The position numbers were made by a program, and so were the translations under genes. Below are positions 1-59,367 of a DNA stretch of 59,367 nucleotides, in pieces. The stretch is taken from IMG/VR virus record IMGVR_UViG_3300037244_000010, positions 1 to 59,367 of that record, one strand, 5' to 3'. The DNA is from a virus. Position 1 is the stretch's first letter. The number at the start of each line of letters is the position of its first letter. The notes beneath the pieces are model-generated. The model saw only the letters and a program-made list of their open reading frames with translations, made no database searches and was not told the origin of the DNA.

Positions 1-340
1 CCGGGGCCTTCGCCTTCTGGTAGGCTTCATAAGCCGGGGCCGTCGCCTTCTGGTAGGCTTCATAAGCCGGGGCCTTCGCCTTCTGGTAGGCTTCATAAGC
101 CGGGGCCGTCGCCTTCTGGTAGGCTTCCTCAGCCGGGGCCTTCGCCTTCTGGTAGGCTTCATAAGCCGGGGCCGTCGCCTTCTGGTAGGCTTCCTCAGCC
201 GTGGCCATCGCCTTCTGGTAGGCTTCATAAGCCGGGGCCGTCGCCTTCTGGTAGGCTTCATAAGCCGGGGCCGTCGCCTTCTGGTAGGCTTCATAAGCCG
301 GGGCCTTCGCCTTCTGGTAGGCTTCATAAGCCGGGGCCGT
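1..340. repeat. 33-bp tandem repeat (left arm of a split minisatellite)
   Basis: About ten head-to-tail copies of a 33-bp unit fill the left edge. Units differ at two positions: ggcct versus ggccg, and ataa versus ctca at the unit end. Because 33 is a multiple of three, the array stays open on the minus strand and encodes an 11-residue repeat of the form YEAYQKA(K/T)APA. The same array returns at 59241-59367. There are no spacers, so this is not a CRISPR. Confidence 0.97.
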
Positions 341-511
341 CCATTGATACCCGCAAGCGTTCAGTAGCCATTCAAGCCAATCGCCACGTTCGCAAGTATT
401 CCATATCGTCAAGAGGTCCAGACCTTTTGACCACCGGCGGGACTCGCCACATGCGCCTTCATCGCGCAACCACTTCGCAAATGCTTCTGCTTCAATTGGA
501 GGCTGTCTCAC
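1..511 (-). CDS. Repeat protein, N-terminal part (CERGDW domain plus 11-aa repeats), runs off the left edge
   Basis: A GTG start at 511-509 overlaps the TAG of the HTH gene (TAGTG). The first ~57 residues contain AFAKWLRDEGACGESRRW and then TCERGDWLEWLL. From memory this matches the small ATCxRGDWLLWL domain common in phage and bacterial proteins and sometimes labelled putative immunity protein; that label is recollection, not evidence of function. From about residue 58 the protein becomes YEAYQKA(K/T)APA repeats, rich in Ala, Lys, Tyr and Glu and probably a helical rod. The frame leaves the window at base 1 with one spare base and continues on the right edge to a stop at 59190. No signal peptide or membrane segment is visible. 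Confidence 0.85.
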   Translation of the reverse strand, partial: MRQPPIEAEAFAKWLRDEGACGESRRWSKGLDLLTIWNTCERGDWLEWLLNACGYQWTAPAYEAYQKAKAPAYEAYQKATAPAYEAYQKATAPAYEAYQKAMATAEEAYQKATAPAYEAYQKAKAPAEEAYQKATAPAYEAYQKAKAPAYEAYQKATAPAYEAYQKAKAP

Positions 512-729
512 TACTTCACCTTTCCTTTCGGTGCCCGCACGTAAGCATCGGGCAGTTGGATGAAACCTACACGCAAGGCCAACTCAGCCGTAAGCGCCTT
601 CTTACCCATCAGGACTTGAGAGATGTACTGGGGCGTGTATCCGAGTCCTGCTGCCACTTTGCTTTGGTTGGACTTTGCAATGAGGTCACGAAGGGCCTGC
701 ATCACGTCGTCTTTGTCGTATTTCCTCAT
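511..729 (-). CDS. Small helix-turn-helix DNA-binding protein
   Basis: The 72-residue product has one recognisable domain. Residues ~21-48 (SKVAAGLGYTPQYISQVLMG) read as an XRE/Cro-type helix-turn-helix, with the TPQYISQVL recognition helix and the GKKALTAELALRVGF tail usual for Cro/CI N-termini. There is no C-terminal oligomerisation or cleavage domain, so it resembles Cro or a short regulator rather than a full CI. The stop overlaps the GTG of the repeat protein. It is the only Cro-like candidate for the operator-like sites in this window, though that link is inference. A 46-bp gap separates it from the gene upstream. Confidence 0.8.
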   Translation of the reverse strand: MRKYDKDDVMQALRDLIAKSNQSKVAAGLGYTPQYISQVLMGKKALTAELALRVGFIQLPDAYVRAPKGKVK

Positions 730-775
730 AGCCGCAACTGTAACCGAACGGTTGTGAGCGTGTCAAGCGGAAAGT

Positions 776-1042
776 TTACCGCGTTGCCGTACTCAAATCC
801 CTAATTCTGCTAAATGGAATGAAAGCATCAGATTCAGAGGAGTGAATGCCGCGCTCAATCCAGTAGCATGTAGGGCATACCGGACCACCGCCCCATTCGC
901 CTTTGTAGTTGTCAGGTACGACTTCATCCTCATACCTTGCGACTCCAAAACTCGGCGCGGATGGAGGCTGTTCAGATGTGCGACCGCAAATGACGCACTC
1001 AATCACATATCGCTGCAAATCAATGACCGTTATGTTGCTCAT
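776..1042 (-). CDS. Small putative zinc-binding protein
   Basis: An 88-residue product with two Cys pairs, CVIC near residue 17 and CPTC near residue 56, spaced like a zinc ribbon. The ATG at 1042 overlaps the stop of the antirepressor gene (ATGA), which favours this frame over the competing frame at 793-1002. No enzymatic motif is visible. It is probably cotranscribed with the antirepressor and RNase H genes. Function unknown. Confidence 0.65.
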   Translation of the reverse strand: MSNITVIDLQRYVIECVICGRTSEQPPSAPSFGVARYEDEVVPDNYKGEWGGGPVCPTCYWIERGIHSSESDAFIPFSRIRDLSTATR

Positions 1043-1779
1043 TCGAAGAACTCCCCTTGCCCATCAGGACCCAAACCGGCGACTTTTGGAGTCAGCCACG
1101 TTATCCCGCGCCCGGTTACGTACACCTGGGCGTAGATGCTGTGTTCTTCGCCCCGCATGTATGGCCGCTCTTTGACTACAAACCGATTGGGAATGTACTG
1201 CTGCAATGGCATGTTGTGAACGTCGAAGATGTGCTCCTGGCGGAGGAAACGAAATAAGCGACTGCGACCTGTCCCGATGATCTTCGCAGCCTCGCTCATG
1301 GTATGGAGTCCCTCGGCGTCGTTGATGCGGTCCACGATCAAAGCCTTGGGCCGCAGGACTCCATTCTCCGCTTCGAGCAGTTGCTTTGCCTCTACGGTCG
1401 CCACCAGCTCTTTGAGGGCGTCCAAGTAGGTAGATGGAAGCGCTGGAGCGGACTTTGCCAGTGCGATATGCTCACACTCGATGAAATACTGCCTCGCCTG
1501 CTTTCCGCGCTCATTGCGCTCCACCATGGAAAGTTCTTTCGCCATATCGATCGAAATTGCGTATTCTTTCGACGGGCGCCCACCGGTGAGGTTTTCCCCG
1601 GAACTGGTGAAAACTAAAAAGTCTGAGTTTTCAACGAATTCGTACTGGTAGATGCGGGACTTGATCCATGTGGAGAAGTCTTTTCCGACCTGTAGAAAAT
1701 TGTGAAGTTCACGCGCGTCAACCGTTGGGATTGACTCATCCTTGAATTGTTTGTTTGATACTTTGATAAGTTCGTTCAC
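1039..1779 (-). CDS. Phage antirepressor, AntA/KilAC type
   Basis: Starting at GTG 1779, the product has about 246 residues. The N-terminal part (VDARELHNFLQVGKDFSTW onward, with ENSDFLVF and the SIDMAKELSMVERNERGK block) is the AntA/AntB antirepressor domain. The C-terminal part (MSEAAKIIGTGRSRLFRFLR and YVTGRGITWL) is the KilAC/ANT DNA-binding domain. Such proteins inactivate a phage repressor or compete for its operators. I chose GTG 1779 because GGAGG lies 7 bases upstream and GTGA overlaps the RNase H stop; an in-frame ATG at 1851 would overlap that gene by 76 bases and lacks such support. Confidence 0.88.
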   Translation of the reverse strand: MNELIKVSNKQFKDESIPTVDARELHNFLQVGKDFSTWIKSRIYQYEFVENSDFLVFTSSGENLTGGRPSKEYAISIDMAKELSMVERNERGKQARQYFIECEHIALAKSAPALPSTYLDALKELVATVEAKQLLEAENGVLRPKALIVDRINDAEGLHTMSEAAKIIGTGRSRLFRFLRQEHIFDVHNMPLQQYIPNRFVVKERPYMRGEEHSIYAQVYVTGRGITWLTPKVAGLGPDGQGEFFE

Positions 1780-2249
1780 TTCGATTCCTCCGGTTGAATC
1801 CTGAAGACCACGCCTTTGTCTTTGAGTACCTGCTTTGACAGGACATCGCAAATCTCGTTCTTATCCCGCGGCACCCAATCGAACTTGATGCGGTCCTCGT
1901 TGCCTTTGAGAAGCTGAATAGCCTCGTCATAGAAAGGCTTATAGAGGCCGCCTTTCATCTTCCACTTGCCCGCGTACCCCAGTCGCCGCGCCGCATCGGC
2001 CGACAGGTGGCAAATCACCAAACGCGAGTCGCCACGAATATGGATCTTGCCGGGATACTTCAACGCTTCCCGCAACGCCGCGCAAAATCCAGAGTATTCG
2101 GCCACATTGTTGCTCATCTTTGGGCCTACTCCGCAATAGCCGTTTCCCTCGTAGACGCTCACTCCGTCAACGAAAACAGCCGCTCCCCATGCTGCGTGAC
2201 CACCAGGATTCCTCGGTTCGCAGCAGCCATCAAACCACGCTTCTATCAT
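1776..2249 (-). CDS. Ribonuclease H-like protein
   Basis: A 157-residue RNase HI fold. It shows FDGCCEPRNPGG with Asp7, NNVAEY with Glu51, IRGDS with Asp74 and a late ICDVLSKQ Asp near residue 138, matching the DEDD metal ligands. It would cut RNA in RNA-DNA hybrids, for example replication primers. The ATG at 2249 starts directly before the first beta strand and has an AAGGAA element upstream; an upstream ATG at 2282 would add 11 unmatched residues. It is the first gene of the left-edge minus operon. Confidence 0.88.
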   Translation of the reverse strand: MIEAWFDGCCEPRNPGGHAAWGAAVFVDGVSVYEGNGYCGVGPKMSNNVAEYSGFCAALREALKYPGKIHIRGDSRLVICHLSADAARRLGYAGKWKMKGGLYKPFYDEAIQLLKGNEDRIKFDWVPRDKNEICDVLSKQVLKDKGVVFRIQPEESK

Positions 2250-27379: not shown

Positions 27380-29139
27380 GCGAAGACGATCAAACATCCA
27401 TCCTGAAGGTTCTCGTCCAACTCCGCGACGAGGTTACTGACCCTCTAAAGCAGGTCAATGACCGATTCAGCGAGATGGCGGAGAACTTCGCCAGCATTGG
27501 GATGGCGGCCGGCGAAGTGTTTGCCGGATACGAGGCGCTGAAGACAGTCATTGAGCCAGCCGCCGCCATGCAAGAGCAGATGGTAGGCCTGAAAGAGGCC
27601 ACTCTCGCCAATGCGGATGCGATGGAACGGTATAAGCATCAGGCTGACGAGATTGGAACTTCCTTGCCATTGAAGGGCGGCGCAGAAGAAGCAATGCAGG
27701 CAATGACGGAACTGTACAAGACGTTCCGTGACGATGGGGCGATCAAAGAACAGACCGAGACCGCAGCAAAATTAGCCGTAGTCATGGGAGACACGGCGCC
27801 TCTTGCCGCGAAAGTTCTGTCTTCGGCAGTCCAGAACCTCGGGGATAATAGTCGCCCCGTTATCGACCAAATGAAGGAGTTTGGCGACGAGATTGCCGTT
27901 CTTCAGGCGCGCTTCCCGATGGGCAGCGGTGGCCTGATGCGCATGTCAATGGCGCTCAGAATGCTCGGCACAGCGGCACAAGTCAACAATGTCGCGCAGA
28001 AAACAATGCTCGCACTGATGGCCGAGGGCAACAGAATCAACCTTGGCGGCCCGCGCGGATCAGGCCCCATCCTGGCTGGAATCGTTAACTCTCTGCTCAA
28101 AATGAAAGATGGTCGCTACGAAATGGAGAAGTATGGCCTCCAAGTCGTAAAGACGAATGATGGGCACGTCAACCTTATCAAGACCCTTGAGAAGATGAGC
28201 GAACTGTCTGACAAGCAGAAGCGATCCCTTGAGTCTTCGATGGGAAGTCAAGGGGCCAATGTAGCACTGCTTATCAAGCACATGGACGATTTGAAGGAGG
28301 CATACAACGAAATAGACAATGCGAGTGGGCAATTAGATCAGGATGCGAAAGACCGCGCTGCTACCTTTGATGCGCACATGCAGGAAATGAAAAGCGCATG
28401 GCAGGAATTCAAGGAGTCCATCGGGACTCGTATCCTTCCTGATCTGACTACCGACATTAACCAGATGACGGAAATTATAAACAAGATGAACGAGTTTTCC
28501 GATAAGCATCCGACTGCGGCGAAAGTTGCCGGAAGAGGTTTGGAGCTTGGAGTAGGAGCGGGAATTTTAGCAGCGGCAGTAAAATTAGGGCCGATGATGT
28601 GGAAAGGTCTCGGAGGCGCCGCCGCTCTTGGGTGGGCGCGCAGTTTGTTCCCGACCGCGGCAAAGACTCTAACGGCGCGAGAAGCGATGTATGGGGGCGG
28701 CAGAGCCGCTGAAGCGGCTGGACTCTCAAGATTTCTCCCGTTTATTGGGGAGGCGGTGACCGGTGGGATGTTGGGGTGGCAGGGAGGCCACTGGATGCAA
28801 AGGCATGACGTTGTCGGATTTGAAGCCTATCAAGGCATGCAGACTCCAAAACCCTCAGTATTCGCAGATTGGAAGGGGCCTACCCAGGCTCCCATATTCG
28901 GCATTTATGGATGGGATACTGAGGCATTCGGATCGCCGCGATTGGCGACTCCTACATTTGGTCCGACCTCGCCCTTTTCCGCGCTGGGAACTTCGGGAAC
29001 CGTAAACAATAATCCGAATATCAATATCTACCCTCCAAGCCAAGAAATGGACCCAAAAGCGATGGGAGATATGGTTGAACGGGAGATTGAGAAGTACAAC
29101 CAGCAAAATGCCCGTAAGCAATTAGGGGGGGCGCGCTAA
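27376..29139 (+). CDS. Tail tape measure protein
   Basis: A 587-residue product from TTG 27376, with GGAGG upstream and stop overlap. It is largely helical, with a hydrophobic segment near residues 395-415 (GVGAGILAAAVKLGPMMWKG), as in tape measures that span the membrane. At this length it implies a short tail. No lytic domain is visible. The gene contains no CAGGACYC octamer. Confidence 0.9.
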   Translation: MSEDDQTSILKVLVQLRDEVTDPLKQVNDRFSEMAENFASIGMAAGEVFAGYEALKTVIEPAAAMQEQMVGLKEATLANADAMERYKHQADEIGTSLPLKGGAEEAMQAMTELYKTFRDDGAIKEQTETAAKLAVVMGDTAPLAAKVLSSAVQNLGDNSRPVIDQMKEFGDEIAVLQARFPMGSGGLMRMSMALRMLGTAAQVNNVAQKTMLALMAEGNRINLGGPRGSGPILAGIVNSLLKMKDGRYEMEKYGLQVVKTNDGHVNLIKTLEKMSELSDKQKRSLESSMGSQGANVALLIKHMDDLKEAYNEIDNASGQLDQDAKDRAATFDAHMQEMKSAWQEFKESIGTRILPDLTTDINQMTEIINKMNEFSDKHPTAAKVAGRGLELGVGAGILAAAVKLGPMMWKGLGGAAALGWARSLFPTAAKTLTAREAMYGGGRAAEAAGLSRFLPFIGEAVTGGMLGWQGGHWMQRHDVVGFEAYQGMQTPKPSVFADWKGPTQAPIFGIYGWDTEAFGSPRLATPTFGPTSPFSALGTSGTVNNNPNINIYPPSQEMDPKAMGDMVEREIEKYNQQNARKQLGGAR

Positions 29140-34021: not shown

Positions 34022-37000
34022 ATGAAACGAATTGCGCCCTTTCTTTTCCTGATCTTGTCAGTTATCACATGCTTTGCTCAGACCCAGATTGACCCGACTT
34101 ACCAGATTCGGTGGAACGCTCTTGCTTATCCTGGCGCGCCTGCTGCAAACGGGATCACATGCACCCAGAACGGAAACTACGCGATTTATCCTTACGGCGC
34201 AGAGTGGGGGCAGTCTTATCAGGACACGACGAATAATGTCGAGTACAAATGCACAACATCTGGATGGGTGAAGAATCTACCCACGACAGGCGGCACGCTG
34301 ACCGGCCCACTCAACGGCACCAGCGCATCGTTCTCAGGCACCGTCGCGTCTCCCGCCATAGTGCCTACCAATATCACTCCCAGTACGTCTCCAATCTGTG
34401 CCAACGGCACAGGCGGGGCACTTACAACTATGGGGTGCGGTGGTGCAGGCGTAACGCAGATCATACCTGGGACAAACGTCACCATTTCGCCTAGTGGGGG
34501 CACAGGTGCAGTAACAATCAACAGCACAGGCGCTGGCTTGCCGACAAACGCTGTAGTTGCGTGGGCTGGTGATTCACGGTTCTGGGTTTCCGGATCCAAT
34601 TCCTCCGCTGGCACTGCGGAGGGATCGATTACTTCTGGCTCTGTATCGGGCGGAGTACTGACTGCCCAGGTCGGTAATCTGTCAAACTCGACTCCATCTT
34701 ATGCGGGCACAATCTATAAACTTTATGGATTCACAGGCGCATACGCTGCCTTGAACGGTCAACATGTAACGGTCACTTCGGGCTCATCCTCACAGTTTGT
34801 GGCCACCGTGACCGGCGTCTCTGATGGCACGACGGTTGGAACAGGTTCGTTCATTGCCGATAGTATGGCCTTTGCAGTGTTTGGTACTAAACTTCCAAGC
34901 ACAAGCAGTTCTGTTTTTGTGGATGTTAGTACAGGTGTCGAAACTACCACAGATACCTTTATTGCCGCCTATCTATCAAAGCTGCACCCCATTAGCCCGG
35001 CTGTGACCGGATCGACAGGCTATCTGGTGCTGCAATTGGGCATCAACGATATTGTGACGCTGGAAAGCGCCTCTGCCGCTTATGTTGAAAACAACTATCT
35101 AACGATATGGGCAATGGCTCATGCCGATGGCTGGAAGATCCTCCAGACATCACTGATACCATATGGCACAGATCAGGGGCGGCTCTCCACAATCAATGAA
35201 GTCAACCTTTGGCTCCGTGGACGTTCCCCACAGGATGCAGTAACCAACAGCCAGAACTGGGATATCTTTGACGATGTTGCTCAGATACTTCCCACCGACA
35301 CGGATGCAGCGGTCTTTATGCAAACCGGCTCGCCCAATCCTCACCATTTGAACGATAGTGGAAACAACTTGCTGGCCGCATCGGTGGCGCAGGGCTTATC
35401 CTCCCCGCTCTCTTCTTTGTATTCTCTCAATGCTGATTACAATTTTGGATTAAACTGGGCGCTCATCAACGGAGGCACCCTTACCAACCAAGGTCTTATA
35501 GTGGGGAACAATGCATCTATATCACCCATCGGTAACGGTAGCATCGCGGCAACCTCTTTAGACGGTGTCACGGTGTCCGGCACACCTACTCCAGGGCAAT
35601 CTGTGATTGCTTCTGGGTCTACCTCAGCAGTGTGGGGGTATGTACCCTGTGGATACAACGATATTCCATGCACTGATGCTGCTAATAGCTGGTTTGGAAC
35701 TCAGACGTACACTACGTCTGGCCCTGCCTCACCAGCCGTAATCGAGAAAGGCTCCGCTGGTGCGATCTCTTCGGTGTTTGTGCAAAGCGCATTTGTCAGT
35801 ACTGGTTCTCCCTATACTCTGTCTTTCACGTCCCCTGTAACCGCTGGCGATACACTGCTGGTGTTTGAGACATCAGACTATGGCACAACAATCACAGACA
35901 CTCTGGGTAACACCTTCACTGGTGTTCCCGGATGTGGGACTAGTGGCTGTGGCAATCCCTTTTCGACCGCGATGGCCTATAGCGCAACTGGCGGGGCAGA
36001 TACAATAACTGTAACCCCATCTTCGTCACAAAGTTTTTATGTCTTGATTGCTGAGTACCGCGGTCCCCTATCTGTATCTCCTCTGGATGGTACTCCAGCT
36101 AACACAGACAACAACTTTAGCACCGGCTCAGGCGGCGCAACTACAGTCGGTCCTATAACCACTGTGGCGAACGGTGATTTGATTATCACCGCTACATCCA
36201 CGGACAACAATCTGGGAGCCCCTAGCGTTGCAGGATTCACAGCACGTGATTCCACCGATAAACTCAATCTTTACGACACAATACAAGTCTCGGCAGGGAA
36301 CCAATCCGCTGCTTGGAATTGGGCTACGGGTTATGGACGGTCAGTAGGTACTCTGTTCGCGCTCAAAGCACAAACCCTCTCAGGTCAAACCGCCGACTTG
36401 CATCAGTATGAATCAGCTGCGGGAGCCTTGGTAGGCGCGGTGAACGCATACGGGCAAATCCAACTTCCTACTGCCTCCAACTTACCAACCAACACCCCGG
36501 TTGACTCTGGTGTTGCGCTTGCGGCGGACACTACCTGCACGAGTTTACTGGCGGTCTACACCGGAAGCGCGTGGGAGTGCCTGCCAAGTAATCCTGGCAC
36601 AGTAACCAGCGTAGGCTTGACCATGCCGGGAGTGATTTTCAATTCCACGGTGCCTGGCTCTCCTGTGACGACATCTAGTACACTAGCACCAACTCTAGCA
36701 ACACAGACAGCAAATACTGTGCTGGCCGGTCCTGCGACCGGAAGCCCGGCAACGCCTACATTCCGAGCGTTGGTGAGCGCCGACATCCCAAACAATGCGG
36801 CGAGTACCACAGGCACAGCGGCTAATCTGAGCGGCACACCCGCCTTGCCCAACGGCACGACGGCCACGACTCAGAGCGTGGCGGACAACAGCACGAACCT
36901 GGAAACCACTGCGGGAACACTAGCTAAGATTACGGCCAAAACCTTGAGTTTGAATGTCCCTGCTTGGCTGCAAAATCTAGGCGACGGCTCGGACGGTAAC

Positions 37001-38374
37001 AATCTGACCGCCTATGCGGCCCTGACCGGCGACTTGTACTACAACAACTTCACCGTGCCGTATGGAAACACGGTAACAAGCAGTGCATACCAAGGTAGCC
37101 TAACCATCCATGCAAAAGGTACCTGCACGATTGCGGGATTGATAACCAGCACGAATAATAACTATATAAGTAACGGCCTTTATGGCGGGTCTTCCGGTGC
37201 AACTGGCGGGGGAACGTCGGCGGGTTCTGCGGGCAAAAGCACTCTCGGACCGCCTGGGATGAGTTCTTATGTCTGGGGCGGTATCACTATTGGAGCCGCG
37301 GGGCAAGCGGGAGGCGGTTCCGCATGGTCAGATCAAGCGCTAACTGGCGGAGCTTTGACAGAGTGGGCAAGAGTGGTTGCTACAGCTGGAGGAGCCACGG
37401 ACGGGCAATTCCTAGGCGGTGCTCCGAGTGCGGCAGGAACTAGTAGTTCTCAAGGTTCGGGAGTTACTCTGATCTGCGGCTCGATTGTGGGCACCGATGG
37501 TACACACACCGGCATCATTGATATGAGTGCTTCTCCCTCATCACCTCCTACCGCCAACAACACAGGCGCACAAGCGGGCGGCGGTGGTGGAGTTGTGCTG
37601 CTCTCGTCACAGTCCGCAATCGCCACGCCTCCGCTAGTCTATGTGGCTGGTGGCGCGGCTGCAATCGGCTCCGCCATCCTCACCACACCGGTCAATGGCA
37701 CGTTTACGACAGCGACGACAGGCGGTTCCTTAACAGGTTCCACAAGTTATTACTACACCGTTGTGGCACACAAGGGGCCAAATGGCTCCACGGCGCAGTC
37801 TACCGAAACCAGCCTTGCAACAGGCGCAGGAACCAACACCAATACCATTACTGTAAAATGGGCGGTCGTTCCTGGGGCGCAGAGCTACGACATCTGCGGC
37901 CGCACAACTGGCTCAGAGCAGCTGATTGCGACAATACTGAATAATGGTGCTGGAAATAATCCTCTGGCTACCCAGTATGTGGATACCGGCTCCATCACTC
38001 CTAGCGGAACGTGCTCAACTACAAACACTACATCTGGCTGGTTTACCACGCCGCAGGCCTTGAGCCACGGCGGCACCTGCACAAGTCCTGCCAAGCTGCT
38101 GCTGGGTGTTACCTCTGGCGCTCTCAATGGCACAGCAACGGTGATTCAAGCCGGTGCTGGGTGCGGCACGGGAACTGGAGTGCAATGGAGTGTGTTAGGT
38201 GCTGGCGGAACATTGGGCACAGGCACGGTTAATCCAACATGGTCTGGCGGCTCGGTCGTATCGGCTACCACAACCCCGGGCACAAGCTCAGGCTACACGC
38301 CAGTCAATTACACCGTCTCTGGTGATGGCGGAGATGGCTCCCCGGGCGTAACCGCAACATTTCAAGGATGGTAA
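34022..38374 (+). CDS. Giant secreted-type fibre protein with SGNH-like hydrolase domain
   Basis: A 1450-residue product with a Sec signal peptide (KRIAPFLFLILSVITCFAQT), odd for a virion protein. Residues ~177-460 resemble an SGNH/GDSL hydrolase: AGDSRFW (~182), LGINDIV (~340) and PNPHHLNDSG (~440), where the expected catalytic Asp three before His is Asn. Next come beta domains, a Gly-rich stretch (~1056-1220) like phage adhesin tips, an FnIII-like segment (VPGAQSYDICGRTTGSEQLI, ~1290) and a Gly/Thr-rich end. AAGGAG lies before the ATG. It has no CAGGACYC copy over 4.3 kb and looks compositionally distinct, suggesting recent acquisition. Confidence 0.8.
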   Translation: MKRIAPFLFLILSVITCFAQTQIDPTYQIRWNALAYPGAPAANGITCTQNGNYAIYPYGAEWGQSYQDTTNNVEYKCTTSGWVKNLPTTGGTLTGPLNGTSASFSGTVASPAIVPTNITPSTSPICANGTGGALTTMGCGGAGVTQIIPGTNVTISPSGGTGAVTINSTGAGLPTNAVVAWAGDSRFWVSGSNSSAGTAEGSITSGSVSGGVLTAQVGNLSNSTPSYAGTIYKLYGFTGAYAALNGQHVTVTSGSSSQFVATVTGVSDGTTVGTGSFIADSMAFAVFGTKLPSTSSSVFVDVSTGVETTTDTFIAAYLSKLHPISPAVTGSTGYLVLQLGINDIVTLESASAAYVENNYLTIWAMAHADGWKILQTSLIPYGTDQGRLSTINEVNLWLRGRSPQDAVTNSQNWDIFDDVAQILPTDTDAAVFMQTGSPNPHHLNDSGNNLLAASVAQGLSSPLSSLYSLNADYNFGLNWALINGGTLTNQGLIVGNNASISPIGNGSIAATSLDGVTVSGTPTPGQSVIASGSTSAVWGYVPCGYNDIPCTDAANSWFGTQTYTTSGPASPAVIEKGSAGAISSVFVQSAFVSTGSPYTLSFTSPVTAGDTLLVFETSDYGTTITDTLGNTFTGVPGCGTSGCGNPFSTAMAYSATGGADTITVTPSSSQSFYVLIAEYRGPLSVSPLDGTPANTDNNFSTGSGGATTVGPITTVANGDLIITATSTDNNLGAPSVAGFTARDSTDKLNLYDTIQVSAGNQSAAWNWATGYGRSVGTLFALKAQTLSGQTADLHQYESAAGALVGAVNAYGQIQLPTASNLPTNTPVDSGVALAADTTCTSLLAVYTGSAWECLPSNPGTVTSVGLTMPGVIFNSTVPGSPVTTSSTLAPTLATQTANTVLAGPATGSPATPTFRALVSADIPNNAASTTGTAANLSGTPALPNGTTATTQSVADNSTNLETTAGTLAKITAKTLSLNVPAWLQNLGDGSDGNNLTAYAALTGDLYYNNFTVPYGNTVTSSAYQGSLTIHAKGTCTIAGLITSTNNNYISNGLYGGSSGATGGGTSAGSAGKSTLGPPGMSSYVWGGITIGAAGQAGGGSAWSDQALTGGALTEWARVVATAGGATDGQFLGGAPSAAGTSSSQGSGVTLICGSIVGTDGTHTGIIDMSASPSSPPTANNTGAQAGGGGGVVLLSSQSAIATPPLVYVAGGAAAIGSAILTTPVNGTFTTATTGGSLTGSTSYYYTVVAHKGPNGSTAQSTETSLATGAGTNTNTITVKWAVVPGAQSYDICGRTTGSEQLIATILNNGAGNNPLATQYVDTGSITPSGTCSTTNTTSGWFTTPQALSHGGTCTSPAKLLLGVTSGALNGTATVIQAGAGCGTGTGVQWSVLGAGGTLGTGTVNPTWSGGSVVSATTTPGTSSGYTPVNYTVSGDGGDGSPGVTATFQGW

Positions 38375-43972: not shown

Positions 43973-44003
43973 TAAATAGTCAAAAGTGAAGCAAAATATG
44001 GTT

Positions 44004-44009
44004 TATAAT
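44004..44009 (+). promoter_or_regulatory. Perfect -10 box placed for a leaderless transcript
   Basis: TATAAT at 44004-44009 lies six bases before ATG 44016, so transcription would begin at or near the start codon. No -35 at proper spacing. A CTTATCAA site (44024-44031) lies immediately downstream. Confidence 0.4.
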
Positions 44010-44015
44010 GCAAAA

Positions 44016-47000
44016 ATGATCGACTTATCAACTCGCCTCCTTCTACTCAACCGCAGGACCCGGATTCAGCGTCCTGTAGAGAATCTGAATGCTTATCAAG
44101 AGGTCTACACCTCACTTTCCAGCCTTCAAGATGAGGCGGTGATGTGCCCGCGGTCGATGAAAGAGCCGATGCGGGAGGCCATGGAGCGCGTCCGGTCAGA
44201 GGTGGGAGACTTGGACGAGTTCGTGGCCCGCGAACTGGAGTACCCCTCGGTCAAGGAGATGCAGAGCTACTTCATGGGCCTCCAGGTCGATTCGATTGCC
44301 CTGGCCATCTGGCAGATCAGGAAACAGAAGTCGCTTATCGACGCGGACCAGACCGGAGTTGGCAAGGGCAGAGTAGCGGCGGCCGTCTGCCGGTGGACGA
44401 TCCTCCATGGCCTTCTGCCGATCTTCGTCACCTACTCAGATACCCTCTTCACCGACTTCCAGCGGGATCTTGACGACATTGGCTTCGGGACGAGCGTCTG
44501 GCCGCTGCTCTTCAATGCGGGGGCGTCGATAACCGAGCAGGCAACAGGACGCAAGATATTCGCTAACAAGAGCAGCATGAAAGGGGTCCTGACTCGCATA
44601 TCCGAGACGGGCGGGCTGCCCCGTGCCCGCAATGCCGTATACCTGACCTACTCGCAGATCAACACGATCAACATCCAGCAGGAGGCCCTGAGCCGGTTGG
44701 CGCCGAAAGCCGTCTTCATCCTTGACGAGTCCCACAACGCCGGCGGCGACGACTCGAACACTGGCACATTCTTCCAGGAGGTTCTGCCCGCGGCGCACGG
44801 CGTGATGTTCATGTCGGCAACGTGGGCGAAGCGGCCGGACAATATGACGCTCTACGCGACAAAGACAGACATCTCGATTGCAATTCACGACAACCAGCGC
44901 GTCTCTGACGCCATCCGCGCCGGCGGTCCACCCCTACAGACTGTCGTGAGCCATCAGCTCGCCCAGGCAGGCCAACTCGTGCGGCGTGAGCGGTCCTTTG
45001 AGGGCATAAGCATCTTGAATTTCATTGACGACCGGAATCAGCTTTATCAAGAGCAGGTGTGCGACGATGTGACAGAAGTCCTGCGGGCCATATTCAAGGC
45101 GGATCAGGACTATCATCAGAACGATTTCGAGACGTTGCGCCTCCAGTACAAGAAGCGGCACATCAAAATCTACCACCACAAGTTCAGCGCCATCGTCCAC
45201 AACATCGTGAAGCAGTTCCTCCTGGCCTTGAAGTCGGACGCGGCGGCGGATTGCGCCATCGAAGCGCTCGGCCGCGGAGAGAAGCCGATTGTGGCCCTTG
45301 AGAGCACCATGGGGGCGTTCCTCGACAGCTATGTGAGCGCGGCGAACCTGAGCGAGGGCGAAGTGCTTGATAAGCTCTCATGGTCCACCATCCTCAGACG
45401 TGCGCTCGACAGGACCCTCCACTACACCATCAAGACCTCAATGGGCAATGACCGTCAAGAGTTCCCGCGCCATCTGCTCTATGTCGAGACGGAGGCCAAG
45501 TACCGGGAGGCTGAGCGGCTGCTGGACGCCCTTGCGGTGACGTTGCCAGTTTCGCCTATCGACTGGATCAGGACTCGCATCACGCAAGCTGGCTTTACCG
45601 TGGCAGAGATTACGGGGCGTTCCTACCGAATCAACTATGCGGGCCCCGTCCCGGTTCTGTCTTCAGTGCCGTCCAGCGAACGCAAGGACCGCGTGCAGAC
45701 GGGGAGCTTATTCAACAATGGCGGTGTCGATTGTCTCATCCTCAACCAGGCCGGTTCTACGGGAATCAGCCTTCACGCCTCCGAGAAGTTCAAAGACCAG
45801 CATCAGCGGCACATGATCGTTGCCCAGCCGGCCGGCGACGTGAACGTGTTCATGCAGATCCTCGGACGTTCGAACAGGACCGGCCAGATGGTCCTGCCAA
45901 GGTACACGATGCTCTCCCTGGCCATCCCCGCAGAGATTCGCCCGGCCATCAGCCTCGCCAAGAAACTGAAGAGCCTGAACGCCAACACGTCGAGCAACAC
46001 GCGGTCGGCAATGTCGATTGAGGCGCCAGACATGATGAACAAGTACGGCGACAAGATCGTGGCGGAATGGCTGCACGAGAATGAGCAGATTGCCCGTCTC
46101 ATGGGCCTCACGATGGACAAGTCGGAAGAGGAAGGGGGTACTCCAGAGGAGGACCTGGCGCGCACGGCAACAGGACGCTCGGCATTGCTTCCCGTCAAAG
46201 AGCAGCGCGAGTTCATGGAGACGATCACCGAAAGCTACACGGACTACATCGCCTACCTCGACGAAACCGGGCAGAACGACCTTGAACCCAAGACCTACAA
46301 CTTCGATGCAGAGCATAAGACCTCGCACGTCATATATGTTGGGTCTGATCCTTCATCGCCATTCGGGGAAGATGCCATCTTCGGAACCTACTCAATCAAG
46401 CGTCAAGGCAAGTCCTACACCCCGGAAGAGGTCGAGGAACTCATTGCACAGACTTATGGTCCTGACCTCATGAAGTACGAGCCATGGCAGCGGGACACGT
46501 ACCACGCGCGGGCCTTGAGCGCACACCTTGAGGGCTTGTTCAAGCCATACATTGAGGGCGTGGAAGCCCCACACATCTTTGATCGAGCGCAGAAAATCAG
46601 GGAATGGTCACGGTCGATATTGAACGACTTCCGAATGGGAACAGGACTCAGAATCGAAATCAACGGAGACACCTACAACGGCATCATCTACGACATTCGC
46701 GGCCGCAAGAAAGTAAGCGGAAACCCCTACGCTCCCAGTTCGCTGAAGTTCTACATTGCAGTCAACGGGCCTTTGCGCGAGGTGCGCGTACCTGGCTCGC
46801 AGATCAAGAAGATTACGCTGTCGAACCTTGGACGCAATGCGGATATTGCTGAACTGTTTCAGGACTATCTAAGCGACACTCGGCAGCGCGCCAAGATCAT
46901 CACCGGGAATCTGCTGGGAGCTTATGGGCAGTTGAAGCCGGGGAGCAAGGGAAGAATTATCACGTTCACAAAGCATGAGGGCGGCACAGAGCAGGGAATC

Positions 47001-47057
47001 TTGATGCCAGCACGGTTCGATTGGGAGAAGGACGTCACCCCGCAGAAGCTCGATTGA
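44016..47057 (+). CDS. Strawberry-notch-type helicase
   Basis: About 1013 residues from ATG 44016 (GTG 43986 and ATG 43998 are alternatives; none has a ribosome binding site). Walker A variant DADQTGVGKGR (~108), DESH box (~236), SATWAKRPDN, STGISLHASEKF (~580) and QILGRSNRTGQ (~616) give a superfamily 2 helicase of the Strawberry-notch class, known in phages from DarB-like antirestriction or DNA-modification modules. It lies alone after a strong terminator and faces the helicase-methyltransferase gene, overlapping it by 189 bases. Confidence 0.88.
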   Translation: MIDLSTRLLLLNRRTRIQRPVENLNAYQEVYTSLSSLQDEAVMCPRSMKEPMREAMERVRSEVGDLDEFVARELEYPSVKEMQSYFMGLQVDSIALAIWQIRKQKSLIDADQTGVGKGRVAAAVCRWTILHGLLPIFVTYSDTLFTDFQRDLDDIGFGTSVWPLLFNAGASITEQATGRKIFANKSSMKGVLTRISETGGLPRARNAVYLTYSQINTINIQQEALSRLAPKAVFILDESHNAGGDDSNTGTFFQEVLPAAHGVMFMSATWAKRPDNMTLYATKTDISIAIHDNQRVSDAIRAGGPPLQTVVSHQLAQAGQLVRRERSFEGISILNFIDDRNQLYQEQVCDDVTEVLRAIFKADQDYHQNDFETLRLQYKKRHIKIYHHKFSAIVHNIVKQFLLALKSDAAADCAIEALGRGEKPIVALESTMGAFLDSYVSAANLSEGEVLDKLSWSTILRRALDRTLHYTIKTSMGNDRQEFPRHLLYVETEAKYREAERLLDALAVTLPVSPIDWIRTRITQAGFTVAEITGRSYRINYAGPVPVLSSVPSSERKDRVQTGSLFNNGGVDCLILNQAGSTGISLHASEKFKDQHQRHMIVAQPAGDVNVFMQILGRSNRTGQMVLPRYTMLSLAIPAEIRPAISLAKKLKSLNANTSSNTRSAMSIEAPDMMNKYGDKIVAEWLHENEQIARLMGLTMDKSEEEGGTPEEDLARTATGRSALLPVKEQREFMETITESYTDYIAYLDETGQNDLEPKTYNFDAEHKTSHVIYVGSDPSSPFGEDAIFGTYSIKRQGKSYTPEEVEELIAQTYGPDLMKYEPWQRDTYHARALSAHLEGLFKPYIEGVEAPHIFDRAQKIREWSRSILNDFRMGTGLRIEINGDTYNGIIYDIRGRKKVSGNPYAPSSLKFYIAVNGPLREVRVPGSQIKKITLSNLGRNADIAELFQDYLSDTRQRAKIITGNLLGAYGQLKPGSKGRIITFTKHEGGTEQGILMPARFDWEKDVTPQKLD

Positions 47058-49388
47058 GTCCTGCGGGGTGTTGGGTTCCTGTGCGTCCTCTGCGGCTTCC
47101 CCGGTGACGTAGGAATACGGATCATCATTCAACTCTTCTTCTGACACTTCCTCTTGCTCTGCGAACAGTCCGGCATTGCTTGCCAGCGCCCGGTCAAGGT
47201 TGCGGCACGCCTGATTGTAGTAAGACTTTTTCAGTTCACTTCCAAGGAACTTGCGGCCCATCTCCAGAGCAACAAACCCTTCAGAACCGATGCCAGCGAA
47301 CGGACTCCAAACCACATCGCCGGGATTCGTCCACAGTTTGACGGCGCGGCGGATAACTTCAAGCTGCAAAGGGCAGATGTGGCGTTCGTCGTTGTGTTCC
47401 CGAGCCGAACGATATTGCAGCGTATCCGATGGGTTTATGTCCATCCAAATCGGGCTGGCATACTGCTGCCACAGTTGGACGGGAAACTCCTCGGCGGTGT
47501 GTGCGCAGCGTTCGGGATTATCCCCCGGCTTCCTCATGGTCACAAGATAGTCAGGCACGCCCTGGCGGCTCATGGTAGAGTCCTTGCGAATCTGCTTGTG
47601 GAGTAGCCCGAGAGCCTTCGTACGCTGCATGGCGGTAACTGGGTCTTTCCAGATGCAGACCTCAGAATGGTAGATGAACCCCACTTCCTCAAATGCGCGG
47701 ATGATCTCGCCCCTGAAGTCCCGCAAGCCGATATGACCATCCCTGACCTTTGACGTAGGCAGGTTCATGCAATGAATGGAAACCAACCTGCCGGGCATCA
47801 ATGCGCGGTACTGCTCTTTGATGAGGAAACGGTAGTGGCGCCAGAACTCGTCATGGTCTTTGCTGTTTCCCAAGTCCCGCTCCGAATTGCTGTATGTGTA
47901 GAGTGAAGCGAACGGAGGCGAGTAGACGGAATAGTGGATGCTGTTGTCGGGAAGCTCCCGCGCAAGATCAACGCAGTCAGCAAGGTGCATTGTCCAGTTT
48001 TCGGAAGTCTTCACTTCGCGCTCATAGGTCGATTCGCTGCGCACGGTGCCTACCAGATTCATGCGTGTCAAGTCCTGCATGTTTTCCTGCATCTCTTCTG
48101 CCATCTGCTCTGACTCCCTTTCTTTACGCTTCAGATTTTCAAGTACGTTTCCCTCTGTCGATGCTGCGATGATGTGAACGTGGACGGGTTCATCCTGGCC
48201 AAACCTCCAGCATCGCCGGATTGCCTGAAAGAACTGCTCCCATGAATCGTTCACTCCGGCGAAGATCATGTGTGAGCAAACCTGATAGTTCACACCGAAA
48301 CCTAAGATGGAAGCCTTGGAAACCATGCGCTTGATCTTTCCTTGTGCAAACTCCAGTGACCGAGCAGCCTTCACTTCTGGCGTGTCCGATCCCGTCAATT
48401 CAACCCCATCGATACTTGCGGCTGCCATCTCGCTTTCCTTGTTCAAATTCGTCCAGACGAGCCAAGTTTCGTCAGGTTCCGCGTCAACGACTAGCTTGAC
48501 TTCCATGATCCGATCAATGACAGTGGACCTCCGCGCATTCAGCCTCTCGGAAAGTGTCTCAGCGGGCATCGCGAACAACATCCCTTCGCTCGGCGTGTCT
48601 ACGCCCACGATGTGTTCGTGGTAGACCAGTTCCGGCAGGATGAAAGGCCCATCGTCGTATCCCACATCTGAAGGCTTGCGGATGTTGACAGCCCAGGAGC
48701 AAACCCACTTCCAGAACTCCGCCCGAGCATGGCCCTTGAGCCTCCACTTCTGCGTCTCTCCGCCGTCGTGCGTGAAGAACATGGAAAGCATCTCAGTGGC
48801 CGTCATGACGCCCAAGAACTCCGCATGGTTGCCAAGCTCCATATGATCGTTCGGGGCAGGTGTGGCGGTCGCAGCGAGCCGGTACGGGGTATCCTTGAAC
48901 ACTTCAATGAGTGCGGAACGAGTCGCGCCATCGAAAGACTTCAGGATGCTGGATTCATCAAGCACTACTCCCGCGAAGTCGGAAGGGTCGAAGTTATCCA
49001 TGCGTTCATAGTTCGTGACGATGATGGATTCCGTGACAAGTTCTCCGTGATCGTAGAACTTTCCGTTGTGCGCGACATAATCCTTGCAGTACCTAACTTT
49101 GATGCCGAACTTCGCCCCCTCTGTGACCATCTGGTAAGCCACAGCCAGAGGTGCGAGAATCAGGACCGGCATACCGGTATGTTCTGACACGACGCGCGCC
49201 CACTCTTCCTCAATGAGCGTCTTCCCCATGCCGGTGCCAAGGAATGCGGCCGCCCGTCCAAGGCGAAGCGCCCATGAGCACACGTCGCGCTGATGCGGAA
49301 ACATGGATGGATTCAGCGGAGGAACGGTAGTCAAACCGGAGACAATCGGCGTGAACCGCTTCGCTTTCAGAAACTCTTCATAGTTCAT
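46869..49388 (-). CDS. Helicase-DNA methyltransferase fusion
   Basis: An 839-residue product from ATG 49388 with AGGAAAG upstream. The N-terminal half is a SNF2/DEAD-type helicase: GTGMGKT (~51-57), LDESS (~146), ATATPAPNDH, and RRCWRFGQDEPVHVH as motif VI. The C-terminal half is an adenine-N6/cytosine-N4 methyltransferase of the beta order: catalytic SPPF (~490) precedes the AdoMet motif SPFAGIGSEGF (~695) and GSELKKSYY. No nuclease domain, so it is a modification enzyme, perhaps against restriction. The last ~63 codons are read from the strand opposite the SNO gene end. The gene is almost free of CAGGACYC. Confidence 0.9.
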   Translation of the reverse strand: MNYEEFLKAKRFTPIVSGLTTVPPLNPSMFPHQRDVCSWALRLGRAAAFLGTGMGKTLIEEEWARVVSEHTGMPVLILAPLAVAYQMVTEGAKFGIKVRYCKDYVAHNGKFYDHGELVTESIIVTNYERMDNFDPSDFAGVVLDESSILKSFDGATRSALIEVFKDTPYRLAATATPAPNDHMELGNHAEFLGVMTATEMLSMFFTHDGGETQKWRLKGHARAEFWKWVCSWAVNIRKPSDVGYDDGPFILPELVYHEHIVGVDTPSEGMLFAMPAETLSERLNARRSTVIDRIMEVKLVVDAEPDETWLVWTNLNKESEMAAASIDGVELTGSDTPEVKAARSLEFAQGKIKRMVSKASILGFGVNYQVCSHMIFAGVNDSWEQFFQAIRRCWRFGQDEPVHVHIIAASTEGNVLENLKRKERESEQMAEEMQENMQDLTRMNLVGTVRSESTYEREVKTSENWTMHLADCVDLARELPDNSIHYSVYSPPFASLYTYSNSERDLGNSKDHDEFWRHYRFLIKEQYRALMPGRLVSIHCMNLPTSKVRDGHIGLRDFRGEIIRAFEEVGFIYHSEVCIWKDPVTAMQRTKALGLLHKQIRKDSTMSRQGVPDYLVTMRKPGDNPERCAHTAEEFPVQLWQQYASPIWMDINPSDTLQYRSAREHNDERHICPLQLEVIRRAVKLWTNPGDVVWSPFAGIGSEGFVALEMGRKFLGSELKKSYYNQACRNLDRALASNAGLFAEQEEVSEEELNDDPYSYVTGEAAEDAQEPNTPQDSIELLRGDVLLPIEPCWHQDSLLCAALMLCERDNSSLAPRLQLPISSQQIPGDDLGALPSVA

Positions 49389-49740
49389 GATCTTTCCTTT
49401 CGATGTGTGGTTTGCTTCCGTGCTGATGTTCAAACTGGTGACATCTCCAACAACTCCAGCGATGCTTCTGGCCTGTCTCTTCTGATTCAAACCATCCGAA
49501 CCGACTCTTAGATTTCAGGTGGCTCAGTTGCCCTTGGTGTTCCTCGTCGTCCAGTGCGTTGAGCGGCGCATATCCGAGGCAGTGAGGCCCGTTGTGAAGC
49601 TCACACATGCCGCCAGCGCGCAAATAGCAGTCCAACCTGGCCGATTGCTTCTCTTCGCTGGTCGGCTGCCCCTTGCGCATCCCTGGCCGTTTCTTGCGTA
49701 CTGGCGTGTAGCGTTTGAGTGGAGTCCTACGAGCAATCAT
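49378..49740 (-). CDS. HNH-type zinc nuclease-like protein
   Basis: A 120-residue product. The basic N-terminus (RRTPLKRYTPVRKKRPGMRK), CELHNGPHCLGY, the SHLKSKSRFGW block and SCWRCHQFEHQHGSKP fit small phage HNH/recombination endonucleases with HLKxRG and CxxHHxxxH signatures. GAGGCGG precedes the ATG, which overlaps the preceding stop. Confidence 0.68.
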   Translation of the reverse strand: MIARRTPLKRYTPVRKKRPGMRKGQPTSEEKQSARLDCYLRAGGMCELHNGPHCLGYAPLNALDDEEHQGQLSHLKSKSRFGWFESEETGQKHRWSCWRCHQFEHQHGSKPHIERKDHEL

Positions 49741-50031: not shown

Positions 50032-51379
50032 AGTAGTCCTGCCCTTCATAGTCAATTTCCGCTTCTGCCTCAAAGCAAAGTTTGCGCGGATTAAACTCTC
50101 CGTCTACATTCCCAGGTGAACCGCCGCCACGGATGAGGGCTAGATTGATATTTGCCTTCCGCGTCATCTTCAGCGTTTCTTTGTCCTGATACCGATGCAA
50201 AAGGACCATGGCAAAGCAGTCTTGCAGCGGCTTCTTGCTCTCGCTTATGTCGCCCGGCTGCGGCCGCTTGTCGGCAAACTCTCTCGGTACTTCGCCAAGC
50301 TGGAAGAGGTTGAGCAGTGCTGCGTTCTTGTGCTGCTTGATCTTCTTGCGCAGCCGCTCCGAGTTCTCGACGTAGCGCTTTCGGATGTCCCGATCTCCGC
50401 CGGCTATCAGCCCGAAGTGATCCAAGACAAACAGCACATCACCATCCTTGCGCGCTTCCCGGTCGATGGCCCAGCATATTTGGTCACAGTCCATGTCGCC
50501 GTCATAGATGGTCAGCGGCCATTCGCCGATGGTGTAAAGCCCCTGCATCACGAGCGATTGCTGTTCTGGAGTCCTGAGTTCGGGCTTGACCACTACGATG
50601 TTCGGAAGATCCACAACGTGAGGCACGAGGTTCAATTCCACTTCCTCGTGGTCCATTTCCAGCGAGAACCACACGACGCGAGTCCCGCGTAGGCAGTTGT
50701 ATGCCGCTGACAGGACTCCCATGCCTGTCTTGCCCACCTTTGGCCGCGCTGCAACGATGGTGTACCTCCCCTTCCGGTATCCGCCGCCCATCTTTGCGTC
50801 AAGCCATGCGTTGCCGGTCGGGATGCCCCGCGGCGTCTTCTCCGTGTACTCCCGAACTACCCTGTCCATCAGTTCGACGATGTGGCTCTGAATCGGGGCC
50901 TTGTTTGACTGCATAGCAGGTTCGGCCAGTTTCTCGATCTTGCCGGCCATGTCCGCGGCAACTTCCAGCGCTGTTTCGCTTTGGTCCTGAGCCCGCTGGA
51001 TTGCATCGCTTGACAGGACTATCAAACTCCGGAGCATCGACTTGTCTTTTACGATCCGGATATACTCGTCAATCACCGGGCGCCGCGGCAAACCCTCCGT
51101 GAGCGCCGCCATGTAGGCAACGCCGCCCACCGCTTCAGTTTCATGAGTCCTGCTGAGTTCATTGGCCAGCGTCACAATATCGATTGCCGAGTTGGCATCT
51201 GCCAGTCGCTTCATTGCCGAGCCGATGCGCCGATGCGAGTCAAGGCTAAAGTCCGCAGGACGCAAACGAATTGCAATCTCTGGCCATGCGGCGTTATCAA
51301 GCAAGCACGCCCCAAGCAAGGTGCGCTCTGCGTCAACATTGCATGGCAGCATGGAATCAAGTGTGAGGTCCACATTCAC
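50024..51379 (-). CDS. dnaB: Replicative DNA helicase, DnaB-like
   Basis: A 451-residue product. The N-terminal domain (DAERTLLGACLLDNAAWPEI) and the RecA core with ARPKVGKTG Walker A (~212), WFSLEMDHEEV, FVLDHFGLIAGG Walker B and LNLFQLGEVPREF sensor are typical DnaB. It unwinds DNA at the phage fork. GTG 51379 was chosen: it overlaps the upstream stop (GTGA) with GAGG 7 bases upstream; TTG 51421 is possible but unsupported. A DnaG-type primase was not seen. Confidence 0.93.
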   Translation of the reverse strand: MNVDLTLDSMLPCNVDAERTLLGACLLDNAAWPEIAIRLRPADFSLDSHRRIGSAMKRLADANSAIDIVTLANELSRTHETEAVGGVAYMAALTEGLPRRPVIDEYIRIVKDKSMLRSLIVLSSDAIQRAQDQSETALEVAADMAGKIEKLAEPAMQSNKAPIQSHIVELMDRVVREYTEKTPRGIPTGNAWLDAKMGGGYRKGRYTIVAARPKVGKTGMGVLSAAYNCLRGTRVVWFSLEMDHEEVELNLVPHVVDLPNIVVVKPELRTPEQQSLVMQGLYTIGEWPLTIYDGDMDCDQICWAIDREARKDGDVLFVLDHFGLIAGGDRDIRKRYVENSERLRKKIKQHKNAALLNLFQLGEVPREFADKRPQPGDISESKKPLQDCFAMVLLHRYQDKETLKMTRKANINLALIRGGGSPGNVDGEFNPRKLCFEAEAEIDYEGQDYYA

Positions 51380-57667: not shown

Positions 57668-57871
57668 CTATCCCTCCACTGTGACGTTGGCCGCTTGCAA
57701 ACCGTTCGGACCTTGCTCGACTTCAAACGAGACCTTCTGGCCTTCCTTGAGTGTCCTGTATCCCTTCATCTGGATAGCGGTGTGGTGAACGAAAAGATCC
57801 TTCTCTCCGTCCTCGCGGGATATAAATCCGTATCCCTTTTGTGCTGAGAACCAGCAAACCGTTCCTTGCAT
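57668..57871 (-). CDS. Cold-shock domain protein
   Basis: A 67-residue CspA-type OB fold with RNP1 KGYGFIS and RNP2 LFVHHTAI. Binds single-stranded RNA/DNA. ATG 57871 follows AAGGAA by a few bases. The gene ends two bases before the nuclease ATG. Its leader has a long inverted repeat (see regulatory entry). Confidence 0.94.
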
Positions 57872-57999: not shown

Positions 58000-59190
58000 T
58001 TACCAGTTTTCGAATGACGGAGCGGCCGGTGCGCTCTTCTTCGTCTCGACTGTCTTCTCATGCTCAGCAGGACCCGACTGCTTTGCGTCCTGATGTGGCT
58101 CCGGTTCGGCCGACTCGCGGTGAGCGGTCTTCTGCTCCGGCTTGGGATCTTCCTTCTTCGGAGGATCTTCACGCTTGCTGCCGTCGTTGCGCTTCTTGGC
58201 AACTTCACCCTCAAGCCACTCGATCAGTTCCTTGGGGCGGCCGGCATACTTCGCCTTCTTCGTCCTGGCCTGTGCGGGGGTGTATTCGAGTTCCTTCACC
58301 AGCACTTCGATGCGCTCTGCCGATCCGTCGTCTTTGCCTTCACCCTTACTGGCCGCTATCTCTGCCCAAGTGGTGTACTTCTCGCTGATTCCACCGTACA
58401 GGCTTCGCAGTTCATCAAGCTCCGCAGGACTCAAAGCGTTTGTGTGTCCGATGTAGTCGTTCAGTTGAACTGCTGATACTCCAATAGAAGCGAAGGCATC
58501 GAAGATTTGAGTCTTGGCCGCGCCGGGGTTCTCTGCGTCTTTGGCCGCCGCCGTCTCACGAATCTTCGCCTTGCACTCTTCCACCAGCCAGCCGTCAATG
58601 CACTGCATGATGACGTTGCGCCTGGCTTTGGAGTTGAGAGCGTTGCGCTTCACCTGAAGATCATCGTCAGTTGGAACGATAGTGAATGTGGTCTTGCCCT
58701 GGCTGTTCTCGCGACGCCCCAGCACCACGTCAGAGTCTTTCGCGTAACTCCGTTCGATGCGCTTCGGGACAATAACGATCTCGCTGCCGCCGTCGTTGTT
58801 CTGGTAGTCAGTCGCTTCTACCTGATAAATCTGCTGCGTCTCATCCTCGCCGAGGGGAGTAACTTCCACGAAAATGTGACCGTAGCAGCGCTTGGCCATC
58901 TCGGCAAACCTGATCGTCACGCCCTCGATCTTGTTGCCGCCGCGCGGGACTCGATAGATTGCCACGCTCGATCCGTTCTTGCTCATATCGGGAGCGCAGA
59001 AAGACGGCCGGCTGCATTCACGCAGCATCTTCTGGCGAACCACTTCCAGGTCACGCGGTTGACGCAGCGCCATGATGTAGCGGGATTCGATCTTGGCCTT
59101 TTCCCGCTGCTGCACCATAGAGATGCTTTGCTCTTGATACTCAGCCAGTTTGTCAGTGTCCTGAACTTGCAGTGCATTCTGATTGTCCAC
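58000..59190 (-). CDS. Phage recombination-associated protein (annealing-protein-like)
   Basis: A 396-residue product from GTG 59190, overlapping the repeat protein stop. SRYIMALRQPRDLEVVRQKM, RECSRPSFCAPD, PRGGNKIEGVTIRFAEMAKR and SKARRNVIMQCIDGW are family-typical of a widespread phage protein often next to PD-(D/E)XK nucleases; its exact biochemical role is unsettled. The C-terminal ~90 residues are Lys/Glu/Pro-rich and probably disordered. Likely partner of the 56362 nuclease. Confidence 0.78.
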   Translation of the reverse strand: MDNQNALQVQDTDKLAEYQEQSISMVQQREKAKIESRYIMALRQPRDLEVVRQKMLRECSRPSFCAPDMSKNGSSVAIYRVPRGGNKIEGVTIRFAEMAKRCYGHIFVEVTPLGEDETQQIYQVEATDYQNNDGGSEIVIVPKRIERSYAKDSDVVLGRRENSQGKTTFTIVPTDDDLQVKRNALNSKARRNVIMQCIDGWLVEECKAKIRETAAAKDAENPGAAKTQIFDAFASIGVSAVQLNDYIGHTNALSPAELDELRSLYGGISEKYTTWAEIAASKGEGKDDGSAERIEVLVKELEYTPAQARTKKAKYAGRPKELIEWLEGEVAKKRNDGSKREDPPKKEDPKPEQKTAHRESAEPEPHQDAKQSGPAEHEKTVETKKSAPAAPSFENW

Positions 59191-59367
59191 TACTTGCCTT
59201 CTTTCTCAAACGGATATGGGACGATTTTGCGAATGCTCGTGGCCGTCGCCTTCTGGTAGGCTTCATAAGCCGGGGCCTTCGCCTTCTGGTAGGCTTCATA
59301 AGCCGGGGCCGTCGCCTTCTGGTAGGCTTCATAAGCCGGGGCCTTCGCCTTCTGGTAGGCTTCATAA
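59190..59367 (-). CDS. Repeat protein, C-terminal part (enters from the right edge)
   Basis: The frame entering from the right edge reads about four YEAYQKA(K/T)APA units and ends TATSIRKIVPYPFEKEGK, stop TAG 59192-59190 overlapping the next GTG. It joins the gene at 1-511 after one missing base modulo 33. A Tyr/Pro-rich end and no other domain. Confidence 0.85.
   Translation of the reverse strand, partial: YEAYQKAKAPAYEAYQKATAPAYEAYQKAKAPAYEAYQKATATSIRKIVPYPFEKEGK
59241..59367. repeat. 33-bp tandem repeat (right arm of the split minisatellite)
   Basis: Nearly four copies of the 33-bp unit seen at 1-340. The window ends in cataa and starts in ccgggg, lacking one g relative to the internal junctions, so the arms are not directly contiguous as given. 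Confidence 0.95.

Follow-up and report, generated by a model that had tools for sequence, protein, structure and literature searches.

Both ends of a circular-mapping tailed-phage genome record lie in one coding minisatellite, consistent with an assembly-graph break

A virus record that opens and closes within one and the same tandem repeat raises the question of what its two ends are, physical termini of a DNA molecule or places at which an assembler stopped. Such a case is IMG/VR virus record IMGVR_UViG_3300037244_000010, the whole of which (59,367 bases) was analyzed and is referred to here as the window. On the minus strand, a frame that opens at GTG 511 runs off base 1 within a series of 11-aa repeats, while at the right edge the same repeats continue, in frame, up to a TAG. 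The encoded repeat protein begins with MRQPPIEAEAFAKWLRDEGACGESRRWSKGLDLLTIWNTCERGDWLEWLLNACGYQW, continues into 11-aa (33-bp) units after a 57-aa N-terminal domain, and ends in the C-terminus TSIRKIVPYPFEKEGK. The features that make up the split gene and its array are as follows, with repeat periods and copy numbers from Tandem Repeats Finder (TRF).

1..511, minus strand: N-terminal part of the repeat gene, with GTG start (511-509), 57-aa domain, then 11-aa repeats
59190..59367, minus strand: C-terminal part of the repeat gene, with the last repeats, TATSIRKIVPYPFEKEGK and TAG (59192-59190); the gene is intact in L006, L007 and L009
1..341, minus strand: left segment of the 33-bp minisatellite (TRF, period 33, 10.3 copies)
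59241..59367, minus strand: right segment of the 33-bp minisatellite (TRF, period 33, 3.8 copies), all 127 bases of which lie in a tract of alternating K and T units

The initial annotation of this DNA had proposed that one gene is split over both edges of a circular or circularly permuted genome, and relatives bear out both the gene and the map. The IMG/VR relatives L006, L007 and L009 carry the gene intact, with the N- and C-termini of the window and seven 11-aa units each; in these three and in L010 the N- and C-terminal parts stand in a single frame, and L007 keeps the gene neighbors of the window as well. When aligned to the window, L007 runs from 5541 to 101 and then from 59363 to 53583 in unbroken order. 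Its contig, G002 (58,163 bp), spans the window map in full, remains collinear through the join, and is permuted by about 38 kb, with an opening point near window 34-39 kb, i.e., not in the repeat gene. Because G002 is collinear through the join and opens elsewhere, the map is circular. A near-identical contig, G005/L010, matches the window at 28,273 of 28,281 shared bases (eight differences) and bridges from the N-terminal flank through four units (K-T-K-T) to the C-terminus and beyond. Both window ends lead into one continuous gene and gene order, and the record is a complete circular-mapping genome, about 59.3 kb in length, of a tailed phage with a contractile tail. Either a circular replication form or circularly permuted linear DNA packaged by the headful mechanism would fit these data.

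How the two ends meet is constrained by the reading frame. Abutting them directly breaks the frame, while an overlap of 98, 65 or 32 bases restores it; the overlaps of 98 and 32 bases are exact, and that of 65 bases contains two mismatches.

1..98, plus strand: left copy of the 98-bp end overlap, an exact repeat of the other end
59270..59367, plus strand: right copy of the 98-bp end overlap, identical to bases 1-98

Near the cut, units of type K (GCGAAGG) alternate with units of type T (GCGACGG) to give a 66-bp period, and in this alternation the phase between the two ends is 34 modulo 66. The join had previously been described as lacking one base modulo 33, the addition of which would restore the repeat. 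While the arithmetic is true (-98 = 1 mod 33), no base need be missing, as the ends share an exact 98-bp overlap. The restoration of the repeat holds modulo 33 only; the true constraint is 34 modulo 66, because of which a literal one-base insertion puts two K units next to each other. The remainder alone is weak evidence for circularity, because in a 33-bp array some remainder will always allow two cuts to be joined, wherever they fall.

The position of the ends within the alternation points to the way in which the contig was cut. In gene direction, the left end lies exactly 127 bases into strict K/T alternation, and the right end begins exactly 127 bases before its exit.

1..127, minus strand: putative k=127 branch vertex, where the strict 66-bp K/T alternation spans exactly 127 bases; an EE-type unit comes before it in gene direction

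JGI assemblies are made with metaSPAdes at -k 33,55,77,99,127, where the largest k is 127 (PMC11584781). We simulated local de Bruijn graphs in which 2.5 kb from each of the two flanks were joined through the 98-base overlap, with n further 66-bp dimers inserted. The exact window ends are reproduced at k=127 with n=1, 2 or 3, while n=0 gives no break, and at k=99, 119 or 141 the ends differ from those of the window. Because the simulation fits only with k=127 and n of at least 1, both ends appear to be branch points of a repeat loop, with at least one extra dimer in the sampled population. Here, a homogenized 66-bp K/T dimer in the last part of the array would occur in at least one copy beyond those in the record, so that 127-base read words would have two continuations, one onward and one returning into the loop, and the contig would stop exactly 127 bases inside on each side. 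This pattern, read from the contig sequence, supports an assembly-graph break rather than physical ends, and suggests an assembler of the k=127 metaSPAdes type. The earlier claim of a cut inside the repeat is likewise upheld, with both ends carrying the signature of a graph break at k=127.

The best explanation of the whole, to which we assign a probability of roughly 0.93, is a complete circular-mapping phage genome that a short-read de Bruijn assembler cut at an unresolved loop in a coding minisatellite. With the record settled as a complete circular-mapping genome, its ends are without biological meaning, and the break itself is an ordinary assembly effect at a repeat tract so uniform that short reads cannot cross it. 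In the sampled population, the array would contain at least 13 full units, and the genome would measure 59,269 + 66n bases, where n is at least 1; the earlier statement that the true copy number is unknown holds. A simple test follows, in which an end depth inside a repeat that equals the assembler's k tells an assembly break from a real terminus and also yields a lower bound for the hidden repeat units.

Among other readings of the ends, the one that fares best is a circular contig cut at random, with an overlap equal to the assembler's k, as described by the authors of CheckV, who give 55, 77 or 99 as examples (PMC8116208). The window resembles their direct terminal repeat contigs in that a complete phage genome has been linearized by the assembler with an exact end overlap, and 98 is close to 99. 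However, the overlap is neither 99 nor 127, belongs to a tandem array and is shorter than the inferred k, and an overlap of 98 rather than k is what would be expected of a repeat loop and not of a random cut. The k=99 simulation breaks the contig elsewhere, and the ends coincide exactly with the repeat branch points, placing the cut at an unresolved repeat loop instead of a random position, and leaving a random cut only a slim chance. Highly repetitive terminal repeats are themselves listed by CheckV as likely false positives (PMC8116208). True physical termini, such as those of a linear virion DNA with a short 98-bp direct terminal repeat, are less probable still. While an exact 98-bp direct repeat does occupy the two ends, and the relative G006 opens in the same repeat gene, this repeat consists of array units and nothing else, both ends halt exactly at 127 bases, and L006, L007/G002, L009 and the near-identical L010 read through the gene, with G002 opening elsewhere. 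Repeats alone cannot pair two ends, but that these ends belong to two different genes with a common repeat is, short of a rearrangement in the window, hardly credible given four relatives (L006, L007, L009 and L010) with both parts in one frame, L007 with the same neighbors.

An assembly-graph break at the array also has parallels in other contigs. G006 (59,278 bp), from another metagenome, opens inside the array too, with its units divided 8 and 11 between the two sides of the opening. Of 35 contigs from the wider family, eight end inside the gene at a point downstream of the N-terminal motif, where chance would predict 0.8 (P about 6e-7); the contigs of the family members L042, L044, L049, L055, L059, L061, L035 and L008 end in its repeat region. 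Because G006 opens there and these eight contigs end in the gene, the repeat region is a general assembly breakpoint, one that breaks assemblies of a widespread, unnamed phage protein family about ten times above chance. The simple 127-base signature is absent from the ends of G003 and G006 within their own sequence, and at its branch G005 has 126 bases in common with the window, not 127, which needs the extra assumption of a cut weak edge.

The number of units appears to differ among these phages. Counted from short-read contigs only, the array has 4 units in L010, 7 in each of three relatives (L006, L007 and L009), at least 8 in L008, an inferred 13 or more in the window, and about 18 or more in G006. 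Within the window, the K/T dimers hardly differ from one another, while the units are more heterogeneous in the relatives, a pattern compatible with recent in-frame duplication. A coding minisatellite that varies in length between closely related phages is likely on these sequences, and the 4-unit form and the form of at least 13 units are likely to be real alleles of one virus. Replication slippage or recombination could add or remove 33- or 66-bp units in frame, altering the length of the helical segment while the frame is kept; we infer both that copy number changes in nature and that slippage is the mechanism. The competing view, in which the array is stable within a virus species and the 4-unit array of L010/G005 arose from assembly collapse or from PCR slippage in the library, is the less probable one, yet still carries appreciable weight. 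Repeats of 33 bp collapse easily, and the contig starts at the branch, sharing those 126 bases with the window before diverging. Against collapse, the contig connects the N-terminal flank with the C-terminus by way of K-T-K-T, a path for which the words must have been in the reads, and unit counts vary among the other relatives as well (7, 7, 7, at least 8 in L008, and about 18 or more in G006).

Real length alleles would place the array near the coding VNTRs of bacteria, with which it shares a unit length divisible by three, near-identical units and, probably, copy numbers that differ in relatives; its 33-bp tandem units preserve the reading frame. It differs in residing in a phage early-region gene and in that the variation is read from contigs rather than by typing isolates. 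A further step, which we consider doubtful, is that this is a hypervariable in-frame minisatellite in an early-region gene, in which the number of units (4 to at least 13) shifts rapidly inside a single virus population to produce length variants of a helical protein, a form of phase or size variation in phages. If true, the same would apply to a wider family with Ala-rich helical repeats of variable length, which would be systematically broken in short-read assemblies.

The repeat protein belongs to a family found on about 35 viral contigs, in which an N-terminal motif, TC(E/K)RGDW, precedes Ala-rich or 11-aa helical repeats, and the C-terminus is often ADIxRK / IREIIPxP. The window protein shares with this phage family the N-terminal motif, in its longer form TC(E/K)RGDW(L/I/M)xWL, the helical low-complexity repeats and the C-terminal ADIxRK/IREIIPxP tag, and differs from members with Ala-rich repeats in having a middle made of 11-aa YEAYQKA(T/K)APA units. 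Some members of the family carry an Imm5_like domain (PF21805); the match is confined to the distant member L011 (34.8 bits, cutoff 25), and the window protein and its close relatives do not match this Pfam model. Searches with Pfam, PHROGs and NCBIfam models gave no meaningful match to the repeat protein, a scan of genome contigs gave no confirmed relative, and literature searches found no paper on the gene. In tblastn against named phages, the L007 protein had no match at 0.001, and the window part gave only low, coiled-coil-like scores. An AlphaFold model of the L007 protein (mean pLDDT 87, pTM 0.74) is all helical, with a long helical hairpin in addition to four short helices. Fold searches with Foldseek returned generic helical hairpins only (best E 2.0 in the PDB, 0.53 in BFVD), and the best Z in the VIA fold search, 6.9, is under the level that its notes set for helical models. 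The hydrophobic moment has its best angle near 98 degrees (three turns per 11 residues, as in a hendecad coiled coil) in the window and in L007; this does not reach significance when compared with permutations of the units, and L009 does not show it. Most likely, the protein consists of a small domain attached to a helical rod or hairpin, the length of which would be set by the unit count.

The repeat gene lies in the middle of a three-gene run with one-base overlaps (TAGTG junctions), which encodes an HTH protein, the repeat protein and a phrog_3657 protein, and the order is identical in L007.

511..729, minus strand: small HTH (HTH_3 / repressor-like) gene directly upstream, whose TAG (513-511) overlaps the repeat gene's GTG by one base
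58000..59190, minus strand: phrog_3657 gene directly downstream, whose GTG overlaps the repeat gene's TAG by one base
737..766, minus strand: sigma-70-like promoter match, TTGACA-18-TACAGT, upstream of the run and a consensus match only

The phrog_3657 gene is followed by genes for a cold-shock protein (phrog_729; 57668-57871, minus strand), part of the early gene run, and for a PD-(D/E)XK-like nuclease (a weak match). As a guess, the phrog_3657 protein might be a single-strand annealing protein; its structural model is too poor for use (mean pLDDT 47.5), and its profile found nothing convincing in the PDB. An AntA/ANT antirepressor gene lies near the repeat gene (1039-1851, minus strand) and, together with the HTH gene, suggests a temperate ancestry or lifestyle.

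Elsewhere in the genome, a 1450-aa protein (34022-38374, plus strand) has no Pfam or PHROG match; the opening of G002 lies in this region, where the DNA is poorly conserved between G002 and the window. A 1023-aa strawberry-notch-type helicase gene (43986-47057, plus strand) is convergent with, and overlaps, the gene for an 873-aa protein (46869-49490, minus strand) that matches both DNA helicase and DNA methyltransferase PHROGs. All eight differences between the window and G005 across their 28,281 bp fall within 28 bases (50114-50141, minus strand) of a DnaB-like helicase gene, where only one of them alters an amino acid (S435A); this cluster has the look of a short patch acquired by recombination with a related phage, or of an assembly of mixed strains.
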